Positions 2,750 through 49,496 of a DNA stretch of 49,496 nt are shown piece after piece. The position numbers and the translations under genes were made by a program. Source of the DNA: a virus; IMG/VR virus record IMGVR_UViG_3300031576_000070, positions 1 to 49,496 of that record; one strand, given 5' to 3'. Numbering within the stretch: the stretch's first letter is position 1; each line of letters starts with the position of its first letter. The notes under the pieces were generated by a model, which ran no database searches, had not been told where the DNA came from, and worked only from the letters and a program-made list of their open reading frames with translations.

Positions 2750-4747
2750 GTGGCATGGCACCGTTTCGGCGACGTGGCCAACTACGTGGAACCATTTTGC
2801 GGAACGTGCGCCGTACTGCTTGCAAACCCCAGCCCGAAATACGAGTGCGTCAACGACGTGAACGGGTTCATTGCAAACTTCTGGCGGGCGCTGAGTAAAG
2901 ACGCTTATGCGGTGTTCCGGCATTGCGACCATCCTGTAAATGAGTGTTGCCCGGCCGGGATGATGATTTCTACCCCAAACGGAGACATCGCCATAGAACA
3001 CATTCGAGTAGGCATGATCGTCTGGGGAGAACATCAGGGTCGGATCGTTCCGACTCGCGTCATTGCAACCAGAAAAAGCGAGTCTGACGCGAGTGATTTA
3101 CGCAAAGTCGGAAGGCTGAGATTGACGGCTAATCATCCCGTTTGGACGACGAATGGATATGTTGACGCACACCTATTGACCCCAGGCATGAATATCGGCA
3201 TGATATGTACGAATGGGAGCAATGGAAAAACCTTGCGAAAGATGCGGCTTGGAATTTCGACCAAGACCAAGAGGCGGGAAGTATTGCTGCCGCGCATGTT
3301 CTTCGGCAGCACACCGTCATCCAGAGAAGACGTGCATTGTTTGTGGGGCGACTTTCTACCGACGACAAGGAACAAAGCATCAACGATGTTGCTCGCTAAG
3401 TTGCGGTCGGAAATTTGCTTGGAAGCACAGCGAGACAATGCCAAACAATTTGAGAGCAGCCTGGGCGGCAACAAAGACGACCGAAGCGCAAGCAAAAATT
3501 CGTCGTTGGGCATTATCGCCGGAAAATCCTATTTATCAACCAAAGGTCCGAAGGAAGGCGCTGATTGCACAACGAGAGAAGGGGTTCATAAACCTAAACG
3601 GCGGGAATGGAAGCGGTCTCAGTATGCCGCAAAGACTGCTTGCCGCAAGATTGGGCTGGGCTACCGAAGTCGTAATACGGACGAGATCGGGGACAGGAAA
3701 AGCTGTTCGACCATATCGGTACATCGCGGATATCGCGGACCCAATTTTGAAGATTGCGATAGAAGTCGATGGTCAAAGCCACAAAGCTATGGGAGTCATA
3801 ACTCGCGACGCCAAGAAGGATGCCGCCCTGCTCCGATTAGGCTGGAAAGTCCTTCGGTTCACGAATCGAGAAGTGAACGCGAATCTGGGGAAAGTGGTAT
3901 CTACGATCATGGACGCTGTGCGGTCTACAACTTCCAAACCGAAACCGAAAACTACTTCGCCGAAAACATCTTAGTCCACAATTGCGAGCTGCACGTTTGG
4001 GAGGCGTGGATGGTGGTGCAGGCCAAAAAGATGGACTTGGCGAACCGATTGGCCAACGATCCGCATTGGTACTCGGCGACGCTGGCGGGCCGCTGGGTGT
4101 GGGGCCAGTGCGCGAGCATTAGCGGAAACTGTGGATCGCAGAAAAGTGCGAAGCCGCAACTTACCAGCGCCAGAAGAATAGGCCGCCTTTCGCTGCGCGA
4201 CGCGGTGAAGGTGTCCCACGAAATTCCGTATCTAAGCCGCGGCGGAAAAGGCGTCCACCGTCCCTATCTGCACCGCGCGCGTGGCATTGACAACCAGCGC
4301 ATTCGCTCCGAGGGGCTATTGGAGTACCTGCAAGCGCTGGGGCAACGGCTTCGGACCGTGCGTGTGTGTTGCGGCGATTGGAAGCGAGTCGTCACCAATG
4401 CCTGTACGTGGCATGTAGGGCATCCGTGCGGGGTGTTCCTCGACCCGCCGTACAGTGAAAAAGCACAGCGGGACATGAGTCTCTACGGCCAGCACGACGA
4501 CGGCGACGTGGCCCACGAAGTCCGGGAATGGGCGATTGAGAACGGAAACGACCCGCGACTGCGAATAGCACTGTGCGGCTACGAAGGGGAACACGAAATG
4601 CCCGAGGGGTGGACCACGCACTACTGGAAGGCGAAAGGCGGCATGGCGAACACCGCCAAGAAGACGAACACGCAAGGCCGCAAGAACCGGCGACGGGAGA
4701 GAATCCACTTCAGCCCGCACTGCCTGCCGGAAATGAGACTGTTTTGA
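2750..4747 (+). CDS. dam: Dam-type DNA adenine N6-methyltransferase interrupted by an intein
   Basis: After removal of the intein (2945-3982) the exteins form a D12-class adenine methylase. The AdoMet motif YFGGK lies at 2720-2734, the typical NYVEPFCGTCAVLL and VNDVNGFIANFWRAL follow, the splice site joins PVNE to CELHVWEAW, and the catalytic DPPY lies in GVFLDPPYS. Position 2750 (GTG) is only the first standard start codon in this frame; it would drop YFGGK. The coupled upstream ATG at 2688 reads MPTLKAPFP and then stops at TAG 2715. A change of frame near 2714 would give MPTLKAPFPVAYFGGK, which looks like real family N-termini. So the gene is either frameshifted or recoded. The enzyme would methylate adenine in phage DNA, perhaps against host restriction. 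Confidence 0.85.
   Translation: MAWHRFGDVANYVEPFCGTCAVLLANPSPKYECVNDVNGFIANFWRALSKDAYAVFRHCDHPVNECCPAGMMISTPNGDIAIEHIRVGMIVWGEHQGRIVPTRVIATRKSESDASDLRKVGRLRLTANHPVWTTNGYVDAHLLTPGMNIGMICTNGSNGKTLRKMRLGISTKTKRREVLLPRMFFGSTPSSREDVHCLWGDFLPTTRNKASTMLLAKLRSEICLEAQRDNAKQFESSLGGNKDDRSASKNSSLGIIAGKSYLSTKGPKEGADCTTREGVHKPKRREWKRSQYAAKTACRKIGLGYRSRNTDEIGDRKSCSTISVHRGYRGPNFEDCDRSRWSKPQSYGSHNSRRQEGCRPAPIRLESPSVHESRSERESGESGIYDHGRCAVYNFQTETENYFAENILVHNCELHVWEAWMVVQAKKMDLANRLANDPHWYSATLAGRWVWGQCASISGNCGSQKSAKPQLTSARRIGRLSLRDAVKVSHEIPYLSRGGKGVHRPYLHRARGIDNQRIRSEGLLEYLQALGQRLRTVRVCCGDWKRVVTNACTWHVGHPCGVFLDPPYSEKAQRDMSLYGQHDDGDVAHEVREWAIENGNDPRLRIALCGYEGEHEMPEGWTTHYWKAKGGMANTAKKTNTQGRKNRRRERIHFSPHCLPEMRLF
2945..3982 (+). 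mobile_element. Intein in the adenine methylase (346 residues)
   Basis: Block A starts at Cys1 (2945): CCPAGMMISTPNGDIAIEH, followed by RVGMIVW. Block B is LRLTANHPVW with the TxxH pair T61 and H64. Blocks F and G read VYNFQTETENYFAENILVHN, ending in His-Asn followed by Cys+1 at 3983. All self-splicing residues are present. The flanking exteins rejoin to the family-typical PVNE|CELH. The middle of the intein, in this frame, matches no known fold. That stretch carries the endonuclease gene in another frame, yet the intein frame has no stop. Confidence 0.9.
3213..3974 (+). CDS. Zinc-finger Vsr-like (EDxHD-type) homing endonuclease nested out of frame in the intein
   Basis: The 253-aa protein has two N-terminal zinc knuckle pairs (C8/C11 with C26/C29, then C41/C44 with C60/C64), a basic linker, and a C-terminal nuclease fold: PYRYIADIADPILKIAIEVDGQSH, then RDAKKDAALLRLGWKVLRFTN. 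E184, D186 and H190 fit the Vsr-related EDxHD homing endonucleases known from phages and from intein-associated genes. It is read one frame away from the intein, and its stop TAG (3972-3974) lies inside intein block G. The start could be ATG 3213 or ATG 3222. It should drive homing of the intein into unoccupied methylase alleles. Confidence 0.85.
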   Translation: MGAMEKPCERCGLEFRPRPRGGKYCCRACSSAAHRHPEKTCIVCGATFYRRQGTKHQRCCSLSCGRKFAWKHSETMPNNLRAAWAATKTTEAQAKIRRWALSPENPIYQPKVRRKALIAQREKGFINLNGGNGSGLSMPQRLLAARLGWATEVVIRTRSGTGKAVRPYRYIADIADPILKIAIEVDGQSHKAMGVITRDAKKDAALLRLGWKVLRFTNREVNANLGKVVSTIMDAVRSTTSKPKPKTTSPKTS

Positions 4748-5281: not shown

Positions 5282-5476
5282 ATGACTGACAACCCGCACC
5301 GGCTTCCGTGGACAATGAAAACGTCGCCGTGGCGGTGTTTGTGGGACTCCGTTACTCCGTCACTTGCCCTTGCCGATTACCATGCTTTGTGCTGGCAGGC
5401 GTCTGGACGGCGCGACGTGGAACGAAATGCCGCTAAGCGGCGGAAAGGAATGAAATGTTACCAGGACTTGGACTAG
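5282..5476 (+). CDS. Small hypothetical protein, partly built from a duplicated gene end
   Basis: A 64-aa ORF with a ribosome site (GAAGGAAAAGCACA before ATG). Its middle (5353-5374) is a 22-base exact copy of 6195-6216, which is the reverse-strand end of the small membrane gene at 6202-6441. The residues there (TPSLALADYH) are thus by-products of an imported fragment. It overlaps the next gene by 22 bases. Function unknown. Confidence 0.45.
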   Translation: MTDNPHRLPWTMKTSPWRCLWDSVTPSLALADYHALCWQASGRRDVERNAAKRRKGMKCYQDLD

Positions 5477-5739
5477 GGAGGATCGTACATTACGTGCTAT
5501 GTAGCTCGGACATTGGTGCCAGCCGAAAAAGCTGCGCCGGGGAAATCATCCCCGCGACCGTCGTGAATTGCTGGCCGTCGCTCAACCGCGACGACGGCTA
5601 TGCAAACCTGTACGGATTCCCGGACGGTTCGAATAACTTGGATACCTTCGAAAAGGGCAATCCTATCATCTGGTTGACCTCGCGGACGTATTCGGAATCG
5701 AAAGAGCCGGGCACATTTCACTGGCCGCCGAAGGTGTAA
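5455..5739 (+). CDS. Conserved-type small phage protein
   Basis: The 94-aa protein starts LPGLGLGRIVHYVL and ends in a Gly-Trp-Pro pattern (EPGTFHWPPKV), with YANLYGFPDG in the middle. This layout resembles a group of small hypothetical proteins often found in phage genomes, which read like compact beta-barrels. Function is unknown. A clear ribosome site (AAAGGAATGAA) precedes the ATG at 5455. It is the last gene before the tRNA-like RNA. Confidence 0.65.
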   Translation: MLPGLGLGRIVHYVLCSSDIGASRKSCAGEIIPATVVNCWPSLNRDDGYANLYGFPDGSNNLDTFEKGNPIIWLTSRTYSESKEPGTFHWPPKV

Positions 5740-5748
5740 TTAGCATGT

Positions 5749-5901
5749 GATCCGTCAGTTGGTGGGACAACGGCTTTCCGGCGAGTGCTCGCGGAAGCAG
5801 ACCCGGCCCGCGTGCCAATGCGTGACCCTTCGGGCGACTCAGCATTGGCACAAACCGAGCGGTGGTGCAACTCGAACCCGGTTCGAATCCGGGGCGGATC
5901 G
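5749..5901 (+). ncRNA. RNA with tRNA-like ends and an enlarged central domain
   Basis: The ends fold like a tRNA. Acceptor arms GATCCGT (5749-5755) and GCGGATC (5894-5900) pair over 7 bp with one G-U. A D-like arm GTTG/CAAC spans 5758-5771 with GG in the loop. A canonical T arm CCCGG-TTCGAAT-CCGGG spans 5877-5893. CCA is not encoded. The normal anticodon/variable part is replaced by about 105 nt: a hairpin at 5774-5798, a perfect 10-bp stem at 5812-5821/5842-5851 enclosing CCCTTCGGG, and a CGAG/CTCG arm near 5856-5874. No ordinary anticodon loop is visible. It could be an unusual or split tRNA, or a tRNA mimic. Confidence 0.55.
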
Positions 5902-5917
5902 TAGGATGTAATTCGAC

Positions 5918-6160
5918 ATGCTTAAGATCGGACAAAAAGTTCTTGTTTACGAACCTCCGTTAGGACTCACGTTGGGGATAGTTACCGAAAATCAAAGCGC
6001 CTGCGGAGTTCGTGTGCAAACGGACGAACGGGTTGCGTCGAACAGGCTTCGATCGTTGTTTCGCGTATGGCCTTATGCTGTCGAAGGAATCAGAAAAGGA
6101 TGTGCTGAGGTCGAGGACCTTGACCGGGTGCGTCGTAAGGCCCATGACCGCATGCGATGA
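5918..6160 (+). CDS. Small hypothetical protein ending the plus-strand block
   Basis: The 80-aa protein starts LKIGQKVLVYEPP with a compact beta pattern (GLTLGIVTENQSACGVRVQTDERVA) suggestive of a small SH3-like barrel, which is inference. The last 11 codons lie in a 33-base exact repeat shared with the lipoprotein gene at 44254, read there in a different frame, so its C-terminus is probably a recombination scar. It is the last gene of the right-going block and faces the end of the virion operon, with 41 bases between them. Confidence 0.55.
   Translation: MLKIGQKVLVYEPPLGLTLGIVTENQSACGVRVQTDERVASNRLRSLFRVWPYAVEGIRKGCAEVEDLDRVRRKAHDRMR
6119..6151. repeat. 33-bp exact repeat, copy 1
   Basis: Identical to 44254-44286. 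There it encodes the lipobox region LTGCVVRPMTA of a lipoprotein. Here it forms the end of an unrelated gene in another frame. This is a short-homology recombination scar. Confidence 0.85.
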
Positions 6161-7630: not shown

Positions 7631-10069
7631 CTACCCCAAACGCACGATAAACCCGGTGCACACGAGATCGTCGGTCGTCGTGGCATCACCGGTCAGTTTA
7701 ATGACGATCGTCGCCGCATCGTCTTGGGCCAAGGACGTTGTTTGCGCCGTGTCCGTGAATTGGAACGTTCCAGACCCGGAGCCTACGAGCGTGACCCCAG
7801 CCCGCTGGACATCGAGGGCCTTACGACCCACGAAGGCGTGAATCATCCACGACGTATTGTTGGCAGCGGCCGTCGCGGTGAGAATGGCCACCGCGCCGAA
7901 GTACAACCGCAGCGTTTTGGAATTGGCGTTGTTCAGCGTGGTACCATAAGCGATGATTTCCACGAAATCGAGATTGGTATTGAGCATCGACGCCGGTAGG
8001 GTGTAGGTCTGTAACGGGTCCTCGCCCGCGCCGATATTGCCTCCCTCGGTAAAGCTCGCATAGAGCGTTACCGCCGCTCGCCCGGTGGCGTGGGGCAACG
8101 TGATGGTCTTGGTCGTTCCGTCCGGCATAACGGCCGCTTTTACGCTGATCGTGCCCCCAAAATCTCCGTCGTAGAAGTTGAAGCCCTGCCCGTCGCTGAC
8201 CAGCAGCCCGGCATTGAATTCCTGTTGACCCGAAGATACCCGCGTTCCGTCCATCCGCAGGTATTGGGTATGATCGTCATCGGCCAGCCCGAGCAGCGAG
8301 CCGTGATCCGGTTGTGCCCAAGTGGGTGCGGCGGATACCGCGCCCGTGCCGGTTTGCGAGAGGAACTTTTGGGTAGCCGTAATCTGACCGGCCAGCCTGA
8401 CGCTGTTGGTCCCGTCGTGATAAAGCACGTCGCCCAAGGTCGTGAGCGGGTCCAAGGCATCGAAAGCCGCCGTCACAGTCGTTTGACCCGTGCCCCCGTT
8501 GGCGACGGCCACCGTGCCCGTGATGGACAAAGTCGCGTCGCCATTGGCCCCGCCGTCCGCAAGGTTCAGCGGGGCCGAGGCTACCAGTCGCCGTTCACCA
8601 GACAGCGTTCCATCCAGTGCGAGGACGAGGTATTGTGCATTGGTGGGCGGTACGCTGCCGCTTGCCGCCGCGGTCAGCCGCCCTTTGGCATCCACCGTCA
8701 AATTAGTGTTGGTGTAGGAGCCGGGCGTAACCGCCGTGTTCGCAAGAGTCGTTGCCCCATCCCCTACGCTGGTCACGTCACCTGAATGATTGGGATGAAC
8801 GTAGTTGTTCGCCCCATCGGCGACGTTCAGGATCGTCCGCGCGGCGGCGGCGGCGATTTCTTCGCCCGGCCCGGCAGCCGCCGTATCGCGGCCAAAAAAG
8901 ACGTTGGTCTGGCTGGCGTGCATTTTTCCAACGGTGACAACATCGGCGGCAATCGTCGTTGCGTTGGAATCCTGCGCCGCGGTCACCTCTCCGGTCAGCG
9001 CTGCGCGTGCCAAAAGTGGGGTGGCGTCCACGTAAACCAGCGATACTCCGGCCATCGCCCCAACCGCGTCCTGCGCCTGTTCATCGGTGTAGCTGCCGAC
9101 CCCGGCCCCGGACCCGCGTTGCGTAAAGTAGTTGGCGCCGTCCGAGAAAATGCGAACGCCCTGATTGAGAATCAGAGCATAGGTAGGCAAGCCGTCGATG
9201 GTGCTCACCGTTGGCGTGATGGTCAGCGTTCCCGCCCCGCTGTTTTGCACATCGACGAACCATCCGTCCGGGAAGCTCGATCCGGCTTGCGGAAGCGTGC
9301 CCGCAATGGGCAGCACGTTGGAATGGGTGACCAGCTTACCTCGATCGCCGCTGACATAGGTGTAGGTGACTCCCGTTTGAGCATTTACCCGACGCCGGGC
9401 AATGGCGGTGATCGCGTTGCCACCATCGTCGTAGGTGAAATCGACGGTATCGGTGTCAACGAGCGCCGCCCCGACCGCGTCCTGGGCTTGCTCGTCCGTA
9501 TAGCTGGCACCCGTCGCATTCAGCGTCGTACCGGACATCGACAGGTTGGTGCCGAGAACGATCTCCTGCGCGACTCCCGCCCCGGCCGCGGAGCCACGCC
9601 CCAGCAGCCGAGACGCCGCAATAGAACCGATTTGTCCGACGGACAAGGAAGCCCCGGTGATAACCCCGGCATCGTTGATTTGGACCACAGAGCCTTTCAG
9701 TTGGCCAAAGGCCCCGTCCGCGCGAATGATGTCGTTGGAGTTCACGTCCACGCTCGGCGATCCACCGGCCACTTGTCCGCTGACGTTCATCAGGGTGAAG
9801 TCGGCGAGCTTTTTCCACTTCAAGGAGGCAATCGAATTGTCGGCGCATTCATAGATGTGCTTGTCGGGCGCCGGCGCTGCCGACGTGATCCATTTGGAGC
9901 CTATCCTTATGCCTTTGGTAATGTCGTCCTGATCGACACCGGACGTAATGGGCGGTGTCGTCTGATTGTAGGTGGAGAGCGGAACTTGGATACGCATTTC
10001 ATACAACGCGCGCACTATCTCGTGCAGGTCGTGTACGTTAGGATTGAAGGTCTGGGCGCTTCCACTCAT
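7631..10069 (-). CDS. Tail fibre protein
   Basis: The 812-aa protein has a virion-binding N-terminus (NPNVHDLHEIVRALYEMRI) followed by long low-complexity beta repeats. It contains VAVANGGTGQTTVTAAFDAL, the GGTGQTT element common in phage tail fibres, and repeated SYTDEQAQDAVGA segments (about residues 196 and 330). The C-terminus (GSGTFQFTDTAQT, DLVCTGFIVRLG) looks like a compact receptor-binding tip. Fibre trimers recognise the host surface. Its ATG at 10069 overlaps the stop of a preceding frame (ATGA). Confidence 0.85.
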   Translation of the reverse strand: MSGSAQTFNPNVHDLHEIVRALYEMRIQVPLSTYNQTTPPITSGVDQDDITKGIRIGSKWITSAAPAPDKHIYECADNSIASLKWKKLADFTLMNVSGQVAGGSPSVDVNSNDIIRADGAFGQLKGSVVQINDAGVITGASLSVGQIGSIAASRLLGRGSAAGAGVAQEIVLGTNLSMSGTTLNATGASYTDEQAQDAVGAALVDTDTVDFTYDDGGNAITAIARRRVNAQTGVTYTYVSGDRGKLVTHSNVLPIAGTLPQAGSSFPDGWFVDVQNSGAGTLTITPTVSTIDGLPTYALILNQGVRIFSDGANYFTQRGSGAGVGSYTDEQAQDAVGAMAGVSLVYVDATPLLARAALTGEVTAAQDSNATTIAADVVTVGKMHASQTNVFFGRDTAAAGPGEEIAAAAARTILNVADGANNYVHPNHSGDVTSVGDGATTLANTAVTPGSYTNTNLTVDAKGRLTAAASGSVPPTNAQYLVLALDGTLSGERRLVASAPLNLADGGANGDATLSITGTVAVANGGTGQTTVTAAFDALDPLTTLGDVLYHDGTNSVRLAGQITATQKFLSQTGTGAVSAAPTWAQPDHGSLLGLADDDHTQYLRMDGTRVSSGQQEFNAGLLVSDGQGFNFYDGDFGGTISVKAAVMPDGTTKTITLPHATGRAAVTLYASFTEGGNIGAGEDPLQTYTLPASMLNTNLDFVEIIAYGTTLNNANSKTLRLYFGAVAILTATAAANNTSWMIHAFVGRKALDVQRAGVTLVGSGSGTFQFTDTAQTTSLAQDDAATIVIKLTGDATTTDDLVCTGFIVRLG

Positions 10070-21636: not shown

Positions 21637-22248
21637 CTATACGCTGACCGCTTTAATCACCGCAAAATTGATAATCATCGCTCCTGTGTCGGACAGCGCG
21701 TTATTCAAATTCGTCAAGGTAAGATCGAACGCACTCGCGGCGACTCTCGTTACGGCAACCACCGACGTATTGGCCGTTTGTCCGGATCGACAAGAAACAA
21801 CGACAACGTCGCCAACCGCCACGGAGGTATTGTTGACCGTAAACGTCGCTTCCTCACCCGGGAGTAAGGCCGTATTGTTGGTCGTAATGGCTCCGCACAT
21901 CCCAGTCATAGTTACGGAGTTGGAACGACTTCCAGTCTGCAAGCCCGTTCCACCCGCGCCCGTGGTGTATCCAACGCCGGCGCCCACGGCCGCGGACGAG
22001 CACCTGATGGCCCCTGCCGTCACAAAGAAGCCCGCCCCGGACCAGCTTCCTACAAAGCCGCCCTGAAGAGTGTAGCTTGCCGCATCGATACTGCTTGCCG
22101 CTACGACAGAGGTGACTTCGAGAATTCCAGTTTCAGTTGTCAAATCTTCGACCCGGAGATCAACGTTGTTCATATTGATCAACTGGTTCTGGCCGGCGCT
22201 CCGGGTGTTGAACGCTTCTGCATTCTGCTTGAAATTGTGCCCAGGCAT
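21637..22248 (-). CDS. Structural beta protein, paralogue 1
   Basis: The 203-aa protein shares its design with the next gene upstream (22270-22872): a start MPxHN, a central GVGYTTGAGGTGLQTGSRS, then CGAITT, FTVNNTSVAVGDVVVV, and an end MIINFAVIKAVSV. Both look like beta-sandwich decoration or collar proteins. The pair arose by tandem duplication and has diverged strongly in the N-terminal third. Coding and a structural role are well supported by context; the site in the virion is inference. Confidence 0.7.
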   Translation of the reverse strand: MPGHNFKQNAEAFNTRSAGQNQLINMNNVDLRVEDLTTETGILEVTSVVAASSIDAASYTLQGGFVGSWSGAGFFVTAGAIRCSSAAVGAGVGYTTGAGGTGLQTGSRSNSVTMTGMCGAITTNNTALLPGEEATFTVNNTSVAVGDVVVVSCRSGQTANTSVVAVTRVAASAFDLTLTNLNNALSDTGAMIINFAVIKAVSV

Positions 22249-22269
22249 AAGCCTAAAACTCCTTTCTTG

Positions 22270-31568: not shown

Positions 31569-33485
31569 TCAGATCAAAAGCTTATCCCGTGCCCGCTTGG
31601 ATTCCAAGAGCTTCAAGTGCGCGTAGCTTCCGAACGGCGGAATCTCCGCGTCGCGTTGCGGCCGATTGCGGCGGTTGGACAATTCCATGCAGGCCAATAC
31701 CGTCGCCATCGTCCGATCCCCGTGGTTCTCGCGTGCCCCGCTGGGGTCCACGACGCCCTTGCCGGACGAGTGGAACGGGGGGCCGCCGGTGGGATTGTGG
31801 TTGTAGTGACGCATTTCATTCACCGTGTCCACGCTCCGCTCCAAATACCGGCCTTCCCAGAGCATCGTTTCGTGCAAGCCCCACGGCCGACGCAATTCAT
31901 CCCTACTCCCGGCCTTGAGATACCCCGCCCGCACCGTCCCGTCACGGTTTGAACGATGATACACGTTGTCGTGCAATCCGTACTCCTCGGTCAAAAGACG
32001 GCCAAACTCATTGCCGCAACCGCCGGCGTCCCAGTTGAGCCAACCATGCTCATCCGTGCCGCAAAAAAAACGAGACGCGGCGACGAACAACTCGGCGAAC
32101 CGAGGGACGGGCATCCCGTGGGTCGCGTATTCGGCGACCTTGGCGCACTGCAACTCACTCACCACGACAATCGCAGAATTGCTCGCTCCGCGGCCTTCCG
32201 CGTCCACGCCACCGGCCGCAACGTCAACGCACAGGATGTAGCGGTCCTCGCGGACCGGACGGCCGGCGGCATCCCAACGCAGCCAGAACTTCCACCGGCC
32301 GCTCGCCTGCGGAATGAACCCCGTCACCCACGGACCCGTCGGACCCGTTCGATAATCCAACTCGCCGACATACGCCGGATCACGAACGGTGCCTTCTTTC
32401 GTCCCAACCCCCAACATGATGTCGAACAATTCCTTGGCGTAATAGGCGCCGGTCGCCTGGGACTCATCCGCCCAAATCTCATTGTTGATGTGTACGGGGT
32501 CGTATCCGACCCGCGCCATTTCCTTTTCCAGCCACGGAGACCAGCGGCCACGATCCCCCTTATCCGGGTCAACCGTCATGCCTTCGGTATGCGCCGGATT
32601 CATCCACCATTCGAGCCGAATTTGAGGGATCGGCGAACGGCCCAGCATCGCGTGGGCCGTGCTCGGACCGTTCGGACTACTCCACCAAATGTGACAGTCG
32701 CTCGATTGGCTCGAAGAACCGATGATCTCGTATCCGTGGTCCGTGTGGGCGTGTTCGTCAAACCCGATCCCGTAATATCGTCCGCCGCGGGCGAATTTCG
32801 GACTGGCGGAGGCCCCCTCGATCAACCCGCCCAGCTCCGGATTGACGATTCTCATGAACGTTCGCACCGGCTGCGTTCTGGGTACGTACCCTTCCGGCCA
32901 AAGCCAACTCGGCTGATTTAGGTGGATGAAATCCACCTTGGGGAGCAATTTGCTCCACTGGCCGCCAAGCCCGCCACCCTTGTCGGAGTCCCGCGTCGAC
33001 CCGTCGACCTCGTCCGCATTGCGGCTCCCAAGGCAGAACTGCAACATGGGCATGAAGTGCCATCCGTGCTCAAAGAGCACGATCACGAACCACGTGAACC
33101 CCATGTCTCGAGGCTTCAAGCCCCGGCAATCCGTCTGGCCGGAAAACCCCCACCACGGATGGCCCGGAATGGCCCGCTTGTCGTGCAGACACTTCCATAG
33201 GAGCGTCACACACTCGACTTGAAAATCATGCAAGAGAAAAGGAACCGGCTTCGGATCGCCCTTGGCCTGAAAAATGTACACGAACGTGGCGGTGTAGAAG
33301 AGTAAGTCCTCGCGGCACATCTTCTTGACCAGGGCACGATCACGAGCACTGGTCAGGCCGCGCATCTTGGACCGAAACAGACGGTTGGCTTCCGGCTCCA
33401 GCGGAACCTTCCCGGTCATGTAATGCGGAAAGTACGCAAGCTGTCGGCCCTCTAACGTGCTGTCGATGATTCCCCATCGCGACAA
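31569..33485 (-). CDS. terL: Terminase large subunit (packaging ATPase-nuclease)
   Basis: The 638-aa protein has an N-terminal ATPase: a Walker-A-like loop KPRDMGFT at residues 124-131, Walker B GIGFDEHA at 239-246, and DCHIWWSSPNG after it (coupling region). The nuclease domain begins YILCVDVAAGG with D421, continues LNWDAGGCG with D486 and ends GDRTMATVLA. The P-loop lacks the usual GK[ST]; such loops with a shifted basic residue occur in terminases (K/R upstream). It cuts concatemers and pumps DNA into proheads through the portal. Confidence 0.9.
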   Translation of the reverse strand: MSRWGIIDSTLEGRQLAYFPHYMTGKVPLEPEANRLFRSKMRGLTSARDRALVKKMCREDLLFYTATFVYIFQAKGDPKPVPFLLHDFQVECVTLLWKCLHDKRAIPGHPWWGFSGQTDCRGLKPRDMGFTWFVIVLFEHGWHFMPMLQFCLGSRNADEVDGSTRDSDKGGGLGGQWSKLLPKVDFIHLNQPSWLWPEGYVPRTQPVRTFMRIVNPELGGLIEGASASPKFARGGRYYGIGFDEHAHTDHGYEIIGSSSQSSDCHIWWSSPNGPSTAHAMLGRSPIPQIRLEWWMNPAHTEGMTVDPDKGDRGRWSPWLEKEMARVGYDPVHINNEIWADESQATGAYYAKELFDIMLGVGTKEGTVRDPAYVGELDYRTGPTGPWVTGFIPQASGRWKFWLRWDAAGRPVREDRYILCVDVAAGGVDAEGRGASNSAIVVVSELQCAKVAEYATHGMPVPRFAELFVAASRFFCGTDEHGWLNWDAGGCGNEFGRLLTEEYGLHDNVYHRSNRDGTVRAGYLKAGSRDELRRPWGLHETMLWEGRYLERSVDTVNEMRHYNHNPTGGPPFHSSGKGVVDPSGARENHGDRTMATVLACMELSNRRNRPQRDAEIPPFGSYAHLKLLESKRARDKLLI

Positions 33486-46894: not shown

Positions 46895-47164
46895 ATGCTG
46901 AACCAGACGGAAGAACGTGCGCAATACTGGGAGTGGGAAGCAAACAGAATGCGCAAGGCCATTGAACGCTGGGTGCACAGATACGGCAATGAACGTTGCC
47001 ACGAAGAGGACTCGCGTCTCGCCAGGGCCATAGACACCAAGCTATTTGATCGCCAGCGTACCAAAGATTTTAAGATGTCTGCGTCCGAATTTCGCAAACA
47101 ATGCCATCGGTATATTGCTCGTGAGTGCCGGGCGGGCCGGTTGATCGACGATCGGAAAAAATGA
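46895..47164 (+). CDS. Basic helical protein, 89 aa
   Basis: MLNQTEERAQYWEWEANRMR continues with KAIERWVHRYGNERC, and later SEFRKQCHRYIARECRAGRL. Rich in Arg, Glu and Trp, all helical. Coupled to the Gp37/Gp68 gene by ATGA at 47161. No family is recognised. Confidence 0.55.
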   Translation: MLNQTEERAQYWEWEANRMRKAIERWVHRYGNERCHEEDSRLARAIDTKLFDRQRTKDFKMSASEFRKQCHRYIARECRAGRLIDDRKK

Positions 47165-48258
47165 GCACCAACAGCAAAATCGAATGGACCAACGTGACCT
47201 GGAATCCCGTGGTCGGCTGCACGCGGGTTTCGGCTGGGTGCGATAACTGCTACGCGGTCCGCGTGTCGCATCGCTTGGAGTCGATGGATCAGAAAGCTTA
47301 CGCCGGCCTCACCCGCGTGAACGGGAAGGGTCAGCGACATTTCAACGGCACGGTGCGGACGCTGCCCGAGCGGCTAAACGAGCCGCTGACGTGGCGGAAA
47401 CCGCGGATGATTTTCGTCAACTCGATGAGCGACTTGTTTCACGAGTCGGTGCCTTTTGAGTTCATCGGCGACGTGTACTTTACGATGTCGCGTTGCCAAC
47501 AACACACGTTTCAAGTTTTGACCAAGCGTCCAGAGAGGCGAAGAGAGTTCTTTGCCTGGTATAAAACTGCCGGACTACCCACGGGATTGTGGGATAACGT
47601 ATGGGAGGGCATTTCTGCCGAGGATCAACAGACGCTGGACAAACGGCTGCCGCACTTGCTGGCTACGCGGGCGGCGGTGCGGTTCCTGTCGCTGGAGCCG
47701 TTGCTGGGACCGATTGATCTGACCCGCTGCGACCACCGAGCCGGGGAATTCATCGACGTGCTGCATGGTCAGCGCACCAACCACGGCGATGCGACCTACG
47801 AAGATTGCCCCACGATCGACTGGGTCATCGTCGGCGGCGAGAGCGGACCGAAGGCCCGCCCCATGAATCCCGAGTGGGCGCGTTCGATCCGTGACCAGTG
47901 CGTTGCCGCTAGTGTGCCCTTCTTTTTCAAACAGTGGGGAGAGTGGGCGCCAACGGACAGTGACGATTCGCGATTCGACGGCAAGGATTGCGTGCAAGTC
48001 GCGGAAGAGGACGGGGAAGTCGGGCCCCTCAATGTTCGATACGGCCCCGTCGTGCGGTCCAAAGATGGTTCGACGAAAAACGCTTCCCCGATGTCTCGGA
48101 TGGGGAAAAAGGCTGCGGGCCGCCTTTTGGACGGTCGGACGTGGGACGAAATGCCGCAACGCGCTGGGAAGAAACAGCAAACAGAGAACGGTGCCGCTTT
48201 AATTTACACTCCTTTTTACGCTTCTTTTATGGGATTCGATGAGATTGATGCGGAGTAG
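47161..48258 (+). CDS. Phage Gp37/Gp68 family protein
   Basis: The 365-aa protein opens with the family signature KIEWTNVTWNPVVGCTRVSA, then GCDNCYAV: Cys20, Cys27 and Cys30 form a CX6CX2C cluster reminiscent of radical-SAM iron-sulfur sites. Later motifs are NSMSDLFHESVP, FQVLTKRPER, FLSLEPLLGPI, WVIVGGESGPKARPM and FFFKQWGEW, all typical of PF07505 proteins of phages and bacteria. The fold suggests a TIM-barrel radical enzyme. Its reaction is unknown; modification of nucleobases is a hypothesis. Confidence 0.9.
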   Translation: MSTNSKIEWTNVTWNPVVGCTRVSAGCDNCYAVRVSHRLESMDQKAYAGLTRVNGKGQRHFNGTVRTLPERLNEPLTWRKPRMIFVNSMSDLFHESVPFEFIGDVYFTMSRCQQHTFQVLTKRPERRREFFAWYKTAGLPTGLWDNVWEGISAEDQQTLDKRLPHLLATRAAVRFLSLEPLLGPIDLTRCDHRAGEFIDVLHGQRTNHGDATYEDCPTIDWVIVGGESGPKARPMNPEWARSIRDQCVAASVPFFFKQWGEWAPTDSDDSRFDGKDCVQVAEEDGEVGPLNVRYGPVVRSKDGSTKNASPMSRMGKKAAGRLLDGRTWDEMPQRAGKKQQTENGAALIYTPFYASFMGFDEIDAE

Positions 48259-49266: not shown

Positions 49267-49448
49267 ATCGCTTAGAACCAGAAACGGAAGTTGAGCGTTG
49301 GGGGCGCCGTGCCTTTGGCCCTAATCGCGTCGGACGAACCATCATCGTACACGACGGGGAAGATTTGAATCCTATCCGATGGTCCATTGTGTACCATCTG
49401 CGGCGAGCGCTGAGTATAGCGCTTGCCCCGTTGGCAAGGAAAGTCTGA
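49263..49448 (+). CDS. Small basic protein, 61 aa, crossing the contig cut
   Basis: GTG 49263 overlaps the previous stop. VNRLEPETEVERWGRRAFGP continues IIVHDGEDLNPIRWSIVYHL and a basic helix (RRALSIALAPLARKV) that may be membrane-active. Its end is duplicated at bases 1-79 of the window by the circular overlap. No family is recognised. Confidence 0.6.
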   Translation: MNRLEPETEVERWGRRAFGPNRVGRTIIVHDGEDLNPIRWSIVYHLRRALSIALAPLARKV

Positions 49449-49496
49449 CCCACAGCAAGCCGCCGGACGGAGCGAAAAGCCACGCCTATTCGAAAC
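49370..49496. repeat. Terminal direct repeat, right copy
   Basis: Right copy of the 127-base overlap. Joining the ends restores one continuous plus-strand gene block across the junction, from the clamp-loader region to the methylase. Confidence 0.95.

Follow-up and report, generated by a model that had tools for sequence, protein, structure and literature searches.

What is a tRNA-like structure without an anticodon arm doing in the gap between two genes of a phage that appears to have no tRNA gene of its own? The window, meaning the whole virus record of 49,496 bases analysed here, carries an exact 127-base direct terminal repeat (positions 1-127 and 49370-49496) and is therefore probably a complete genome, in which ARAGORN at default settings finds no tRNA gene. 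By our own reading of the ORF list, the genes diverge from about 33.5 kb, one group reading rightward past the record end as far as 6160 and the other leftward to 6202. The element at 5749-5901 fills the 178-base gap between the open reading frames 5455-5739 and 5918-6160, a gap showing no frame-specific GC3; a promoter-like site for it was looked for and none was found. An earlier note on this DNA placed the element by itself where the early block ends, which is close to correct: one ORF (5918-6160) still comes before the leftward genes. The parts of the element and its two neighbours are as follows.

5455..5739, plus strand: upstream ORF, 94 aa, phrog_2293
5742..5748, plus strand: outer helix, left strand AGCATGT, pairing with 5916-5922 (probability 0.71-0.99) and abutting acceptor base 1
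5749..5755, plus strand: acceptor 5' strand GATCCGT, seven pairs with 5894-5900 (probability 0.89-0.98)
5758..5771, plus strand: D-like arm GTTG-GTGGGA-CAAC, with TTGGTG at 5759-5764 (stem probability 0.03)
5773..5798, plus strand: hairpin H1, where the anticodon arm would be (pair probabilities 0.40-0.90)
5812..5851, plus strand: hairpin H2, 10 perfect pairs GTGCCAATGC/GCATTGGCAC (probability 1.0)
5856..5874, plus strand: small hairpin CGAG/CTCG, where a long variable arm would stand (pair probability 0.90-0.92)
5877..5893, plus strand: T arm CCCGG-TTCGAAT-CCGGG, abutting the acceptor (probability 0.75-0.96); the same 17 nt occur in Pseudomonas phage D14O
5894..5901, plus strand: acceptor 3' strand GCGGATC and discriminator G73, read from the sequence
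5916..5922, plus strand: outer helix, right strand ACATGCT, including the ATG (5918) of the next ORF
5918..6160, plus strand: downstream ORF, 80 aa

The pair probabilities are ensemble predictions for the element folded with its flanks. As sequence, the element at 5749-5901 is real: the acceptor has six Watson-Crick pairs and T7-G66, and acceptor and T arm follow in tRNA order, as had been claimed. The D-like arm of the same claim stands as sequence; its predicted stem probability is only 0.03, so that the arm is assigned from the loop sequence TTGGTG, and a fold with all arms tRNA-like reaches -62.4 against a minimum of -74.9 kcal/mol for the element with flanks. Between the D-like arm and the T arm lie 105 nt (5772-5876) with three hairpins, in agreement with the earlier estimate of about 105 nt of hairpins replacing the anticodon region; the apical part of H2 is 20 nt long and includes CTTCGG. 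G73 is followed by TAG, not CCA, and the lack of an encoded CCA is thus borne out. The outer helix (5742-5748/5916-5922) is absent from the earlier note.

The tRNA-like appearance is not one that default tRNA searches recognise. A 7-bp acceptor and a T arm with a TTCRANY loop are present, and the element has no 5-bp anticodon stem with a 7-nt loop unless a 68-nt intron is assumed. ARAGORN by default called no tRNA in the window, an Rfam scan of the element gave no match at gathering score, and the Rfam tRNA model (RF00005) gave none even at E<=10. Searches for a tmRNA (ARAGORN -m and Rfam) gave no match. Since tRNA finders miss the element, further RNAs of this kind may lie unannotated.

Relatives were sought through proteins and through the RNA itself. 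No close relative of the window virus was found in the sequences searched, a search that may omit very near records. A TerL pattern had no match in viral contigs, the tail protein gave 78 loci with mostly partial-length matches, and a search with a 665-aa protein led to a single locus, from a different type of phage; in the ORF of this protein (2750-4747) the first ~50 residues match a D12 DNA methyltransferase and the remainder matches nothing. Neither neighbour protein of the element had a tblastn match in phages, no family was found for the 80-aa downstream ORF, and a search with the 94-aa protein gave a locus, L003, at 29%. L003, from a tRNA-rich phage, also holds a tRNA-like RNA (5381-5476) with a long acceptor and a 5-bp T-like arm without a TTC loop (z -2.40). 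Elsewhere in the window, a DUF5131 (Gp37/Gp68-type) protein at 47125-48258 has a strong Pfam match and is ~47% identical to mycobacteriophage proteins; a link to the element by way of radical-SAM-like tRNA chemistry was considered, and the search for it gave nothing.

With the RNA as query, the exact T arm plus acceptor end was absent from viral contigs and genome contigs, and no match was obtained when this acceptor and T arm were searched as a pattern with gaps. When the intergenic region was compared with 50,697 phages by a distant BLAST, 17 weak records matched, the top row being D14O, with 29 bases across T arm and acceptor at E 0.6. Among the candidates set aside, locus L082 shares a 21-nt identity, CAGTTGGTGGGACAACGGCTT, with the window that looked homologous and was taken as probably chance; its inner 17-mer also lies within apparent coding sequence of two other loci (L084 and L085), and the L082 stretch has an open frame by eye, a T-like arm that does not abut an acceptor, and no score from the tRNA model. 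Candidates in a Rhizobium phage (H58) and in Mycobacterium phage Knocker (H177) were not tRNA-like.

In D14O (vB_PaeS-D14O, Detrevirus, a TPA assembly) the matching element (L083:1417-1526) is 110 nt long, closed by a 7-bp acceptor and bearing the window's T arm. The surrounding region matches 59 Pseudomonas phage records, and the leader site was compared in 16 phages, namely D14O and 15 drawn from the region matches (YA3 matched and lies outside this set). Marin (deposited genome OR683406), which was obtained through similarity of the flanks and not chosen for its T arm, has a tRNA-like element of 97 nt (L101:438-534) different from that of D14O. Each module is flanked on one side by a T-run hairpin that looks, by eye, like a terminator and on the other by the beginning of a phrog_4801 gene. 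Across the 16 phages, the site carries a tRNA-like module in two, one of two other structured modules in four (a common 59-nt helical module in IME307 and YMC11, and another in EV13 and FBPa19), and in the other ten, D3, CF23a, U7, Shamal, FBPa47, PAE2, U9, BUCT566, BR141b and PP9W2, a short hairpin that tops the same base helix; an additional gene is inserted there in CF23a and U9. The D14O and Marin sites are annotated as hypothetical protein or as nothing, and no description of tRNA-like leader modules in these phages was found in the literature covered, which included few subscription papers. One such deposited hypothetical protein runs antisense over the D14O element (L083:1269-1535, minus strand) and is probably no gene.

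The two modules resemble the window element in their T arm around CCGGTTCGAnTCCGG, in a helix that continues beyond the acceptor, in lying directly upstream of an ORF and in having no anticodon arm. They differ from it in their genes, with no protein homology downstream (the window's downstream ORF was compared with phrog_4801 and is unrelated), in their inner hairpins, and in length, at 110 and 97 against 153 nt. The window thus has the acceptor and T arm, T7-G66, G73 and TTGGTG that mark the D14O and Marin type, and does not have the position upstream of a phrog_4801 gene.

A finer comparison concerns the acceptor. From pair 1 to pair 7 it reads GC AT TA CG CG GC TG in the window, GC AT AT TA CG GC TG in D14O and GC TG CG TA TA GC TG in Marin; pairs 2-5 differ yet stay paired across the three, and G1-C72, G6-C67, T7-G66 and G73 are common to them. 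These pairs were counted by script because a MAFFT alignment of the three elements left the window's 5' end unaligned, and three sequences are too few for a firm statistic on covariation. TTGGTG of the D-like arm occupies the same place in each, beginning 3, 2 and 3 nt past the acceptor (window, D14O and Marin), a placement that shuffling the interior 200,000 times reproduced 214 times for D14O and 391 times for Marin. Acceptor plus T arm arose in 21 of 100,000 shuffles of the Marin leader, a count to be corrected by a factor for the few module types inspected. The T arm of Marin has one mismatch (A-C), and those of the window and D14O, being identical, say nothing about pairing. The window and D14O were connected through the T-arm BLAST match at E 0.6, and T arms become similar through convergence. 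The antisense ORFs over the window and D14O elements differ, so what the two have in common is no protein. The anatomy and position of the window element, and the layout that it shares with the D14O and Marin leaders with compensated acceptors, are matters of observation.

The stability of the D14O element is ordinary (z -0.79, with 43 of 200 shuffles as good). In Marin, a helix of ~20 pairs runs on through the acceptor, and in the isolated fold the acceptor 3' strand has a competing local partner, GCTTTGC; on this modelled fold the module could switch between two pairings of that strand. The Marin module also has a second T-arm-like hairpin.

RNAs of related appearance were seen in uncultured phages. 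One record, IMGVR_UViG_3300031885_000006 (G001), was reached by accident through the L082 identity and gave 12 tRNA-model matches, 11 of them above cut-off. Its gene at 5896-6015, minus strand (locus L099), is 120 nt long, scores 50 bits, and has normal acceptor, D and T arms with two hairpins replacing the anticodon arm; ARAGORN reports 21-nt anticodon-loop insertions at 5520-5612 and 9178-9273, both minus, and one further call is doubtful. The tRNA model applied to 40 further virus records made 53 matches (51 above cut-off). In IMGVR_UViG_3300035670_000113 (G029), hairpins stand in place of the anticodon arm in two tRNA-like genes with canonical acceptor and T arm, one of 113 nt (L100:8373-8485, z -3.48) and one of 98 nt (L053:18578-18675). 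Unlike the window element, these genes of G001 and G029 lie within tRNA arrays or close to them. With the G001 element as query, a distant search found 50 phage records, none over more than 80% of the query and the best rows over its tRNA-like 5' part; the same search of phages with the 113-nt G029 element gave no match. The earlier proposal of a tRNA-like RNA with a different central domain thus gains support from two Pseudomonas phage RNAs of the same layout with compensated acceptors, and from these two uncultured phages. The outcome that it named as refuting, a lack of covariation in relatives, did not arise: compensatory acceptor changes are present, in three sequences of which none is a close relative.

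Our leading reading, held tentatively and at a little under an even chance, is that the element is a tRNA-shaped module within a phage mRNA, lying between two genes and acting in cis. It has the look of a reusable RNA building block, not of a functional tRNA, because RNAs of similar build precede a gene in two Pseudomonas phages. Its outer helix and its placement from stop codon to start codon speak for a segment of an mRNA more than for a tRNA mimic standing on its own. We infer that the element is transcribed as one RNA, is recognised by an enzyme and affects the downstream gene. In such a module the outer helix would carry a tRNA-like acceptor/T-arm stack, and the extra hairpins would replace the anticodon arm, so that it could not decode. 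The stacked helices and the T loop may protect the transcript or present it to a host enzyme recognising the tRNA elbow or a long helix; RNase P, an enzyme of the RNase III type and exonucleases halted there are candidates. The outer helix, with the start codon of the next gene inside it, may also tune that gene's translation. The cap could then serve in cis to protect the mRNA, to help process it, or to govern initiation at the following gene. Among the enzymes RNase P comes to mind first, as it cuts several tRNA-like RNAs, phage C4 RNA included. It normally needs a single-stranded leader, however, of which the outer helix (~20 pairs in Marin) would leave little; an enzyme of the RNase III type would be an equally good fit.

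The Pseudomonas phages bear on this reading in two ways. Their base helix and gene mostly stay while the cap changes, which favours a cis role of a stable mRNA cap, and the assortment of tRNA-like, other structured and short-hairpin forms at the 16 sites suggests a cap interchangeable on a kept helix. The tRNA shape itself may not be what matters, since 14 of the 16 phages are without a tRNA-like cap at the site; the tRNA elbow may be one of several interchangeable cap designs, or a handle for a host tRNA enzyme.

The alternative with most weight, though we consider it unlikely, is that RNase P and the enzymes of tRNA 3' processing release the element as a small tRNA-like RNA. It would accumulate and work in trans, either as a decoy that engages nucleases or modifying enzymes directed at tRNAs or, through the central hairpins, as an antisense or sponge RNA. 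The suggestions in the earlier note, a decoy or a substrate like a processing guide, may be right. The canonical T loop and the stacked 7+5 bp acceptor and T stems agree with such a free RNA, as do the anticodon-arm-less tRNA-like genes in the tRNA arrays of the two uncultured phages, where decoys would be expected. The non-tRNA antisense C4 RNA of phages P1 and P7 is an RNase P substrate, as are other tRNA-like RNAs, according to PMC11143913, which also cites a catalogue of stable non-tRNA phage RNAs. In the window, however, the predicted outer helix joins the 5' and 3' flanks (as ~20 pairs do in Marin) and so leaves no free 5' leader or 3' end for RNase P, no CCA is encoded, and the element is isolated in a genome without a tRNA gene. 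That the arrays of G001 and G029 include genes with enlarged anticodon arms, and that the tRNA model does not recognise the element, would also accord with a decayed tRNA gene, or fused tRNA halves with acquired hairpins, of no present function. This we regard as rather improbable: acceptor and T arm are perfect while nothing is left of the anticodon arm, a combination not expected from drift by itself, and compensatory changes keep the acceptor in D14O and Marin.

A chance arrangement of intergenic hairpins would draw on the fold energy of 5749-5901, which is only mildly low (z -1.80, with 9 of 200 shuffles folding as well), and on a loose acceptor/T-arm descriptor admitting G-U pairs, which matched 38 times in 60 shuffles. 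With a strict descriptor (T arm all Watson-Crick and acceptor 6/7 Watson-Crick, criteria fixed after the element was seen) there were 6 matches in 600 shuffled genomes and, with the D arm added, 0/600; this and the details in common with D14O and Marin make chance quite improbable. A working tRNA with an anticodon loop split by a small intron appears very unlikely. ARAGORN in intron mode (introns up to 300) does call the element 'tRNA-Ala(ggc)' with a 68-nt intron, and the predicted loop TTGGCAC is plausible as an anticodon loop, but 3 such calls arose in 60 shuffles, a C-A mismatch remains in the anticodon stem, and by eye such a loop is absent from both Pseudomonas modules. The 68 nt are far below group I intron size, as the earlier note had judged of the insertion, and to our knowledge fit no bacterial intron type; its statement that no anticodon loop is usable holds unless that intron is assumed. 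Least probable, and scarcely credible here, is an attachment site, the 3' part of a host tRNA gene carried for integration. Phages commonly retain such copies, and in the P22-like phage L attP lies within a tRNA-like gene (PMC8022706). Nevertheless, a tyrosine or serine recombinase was looked for in the window and none was found, and a search of 84,980 species, one genome apiece, did not yield the 21 nt of T arm and acceptor end. For the related phage YA3, PMC7326022 places attP at 22196-22259 and describes no obvious tRNA genes; the YA3 leader site, at 32492-32574, is far from that attP.

Several known RNAs offer partial likenesses to the element. The known RNAs of tRNA shape that lack an anticodon are mainly tmRNA, the 3' ends of plant-virus RNAs and a few phage RNAs. 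In tmRNA (RF00023) a large insertion takes the place of the anticodon arm beside a tRNA-like end; the window element shares both features, and differs in having no tmRNA call and no encoded CCA. C4 is, like the element, a phage non-tRNA RNA, and its role is that of an immunity antisense RNA. T4 'species 1' and the other stable non-tRNA RNAs of T-even tRNA clusters are phage-encoded and larger than tRNA; the T4 RNA lies within a tRNA cluster and is likened to the element by description. So is put of phage HK022 (see PMC9378689), a structured leader RNA of an early phage operon that acts in cis and is not described as tRNA-shaped.

A wider idea, possible although doubtful, is that these RNAs form a class of phage mRNA module, a leader helix topped by an acceptor/T-arm elbow that serves as a swappable cap, with diverse hairpins for the anticodon arm. 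Unrelated phages would use it in cis to attract host tRNA enzymes or to deceive them, and otherwise similar phages would exchange the cap rapidly among themselves. If this is true, the exchangeable caps in cultured Pseudomonas phages would make the processing or protection of phage mRNA by host tRNA enzymes testable.
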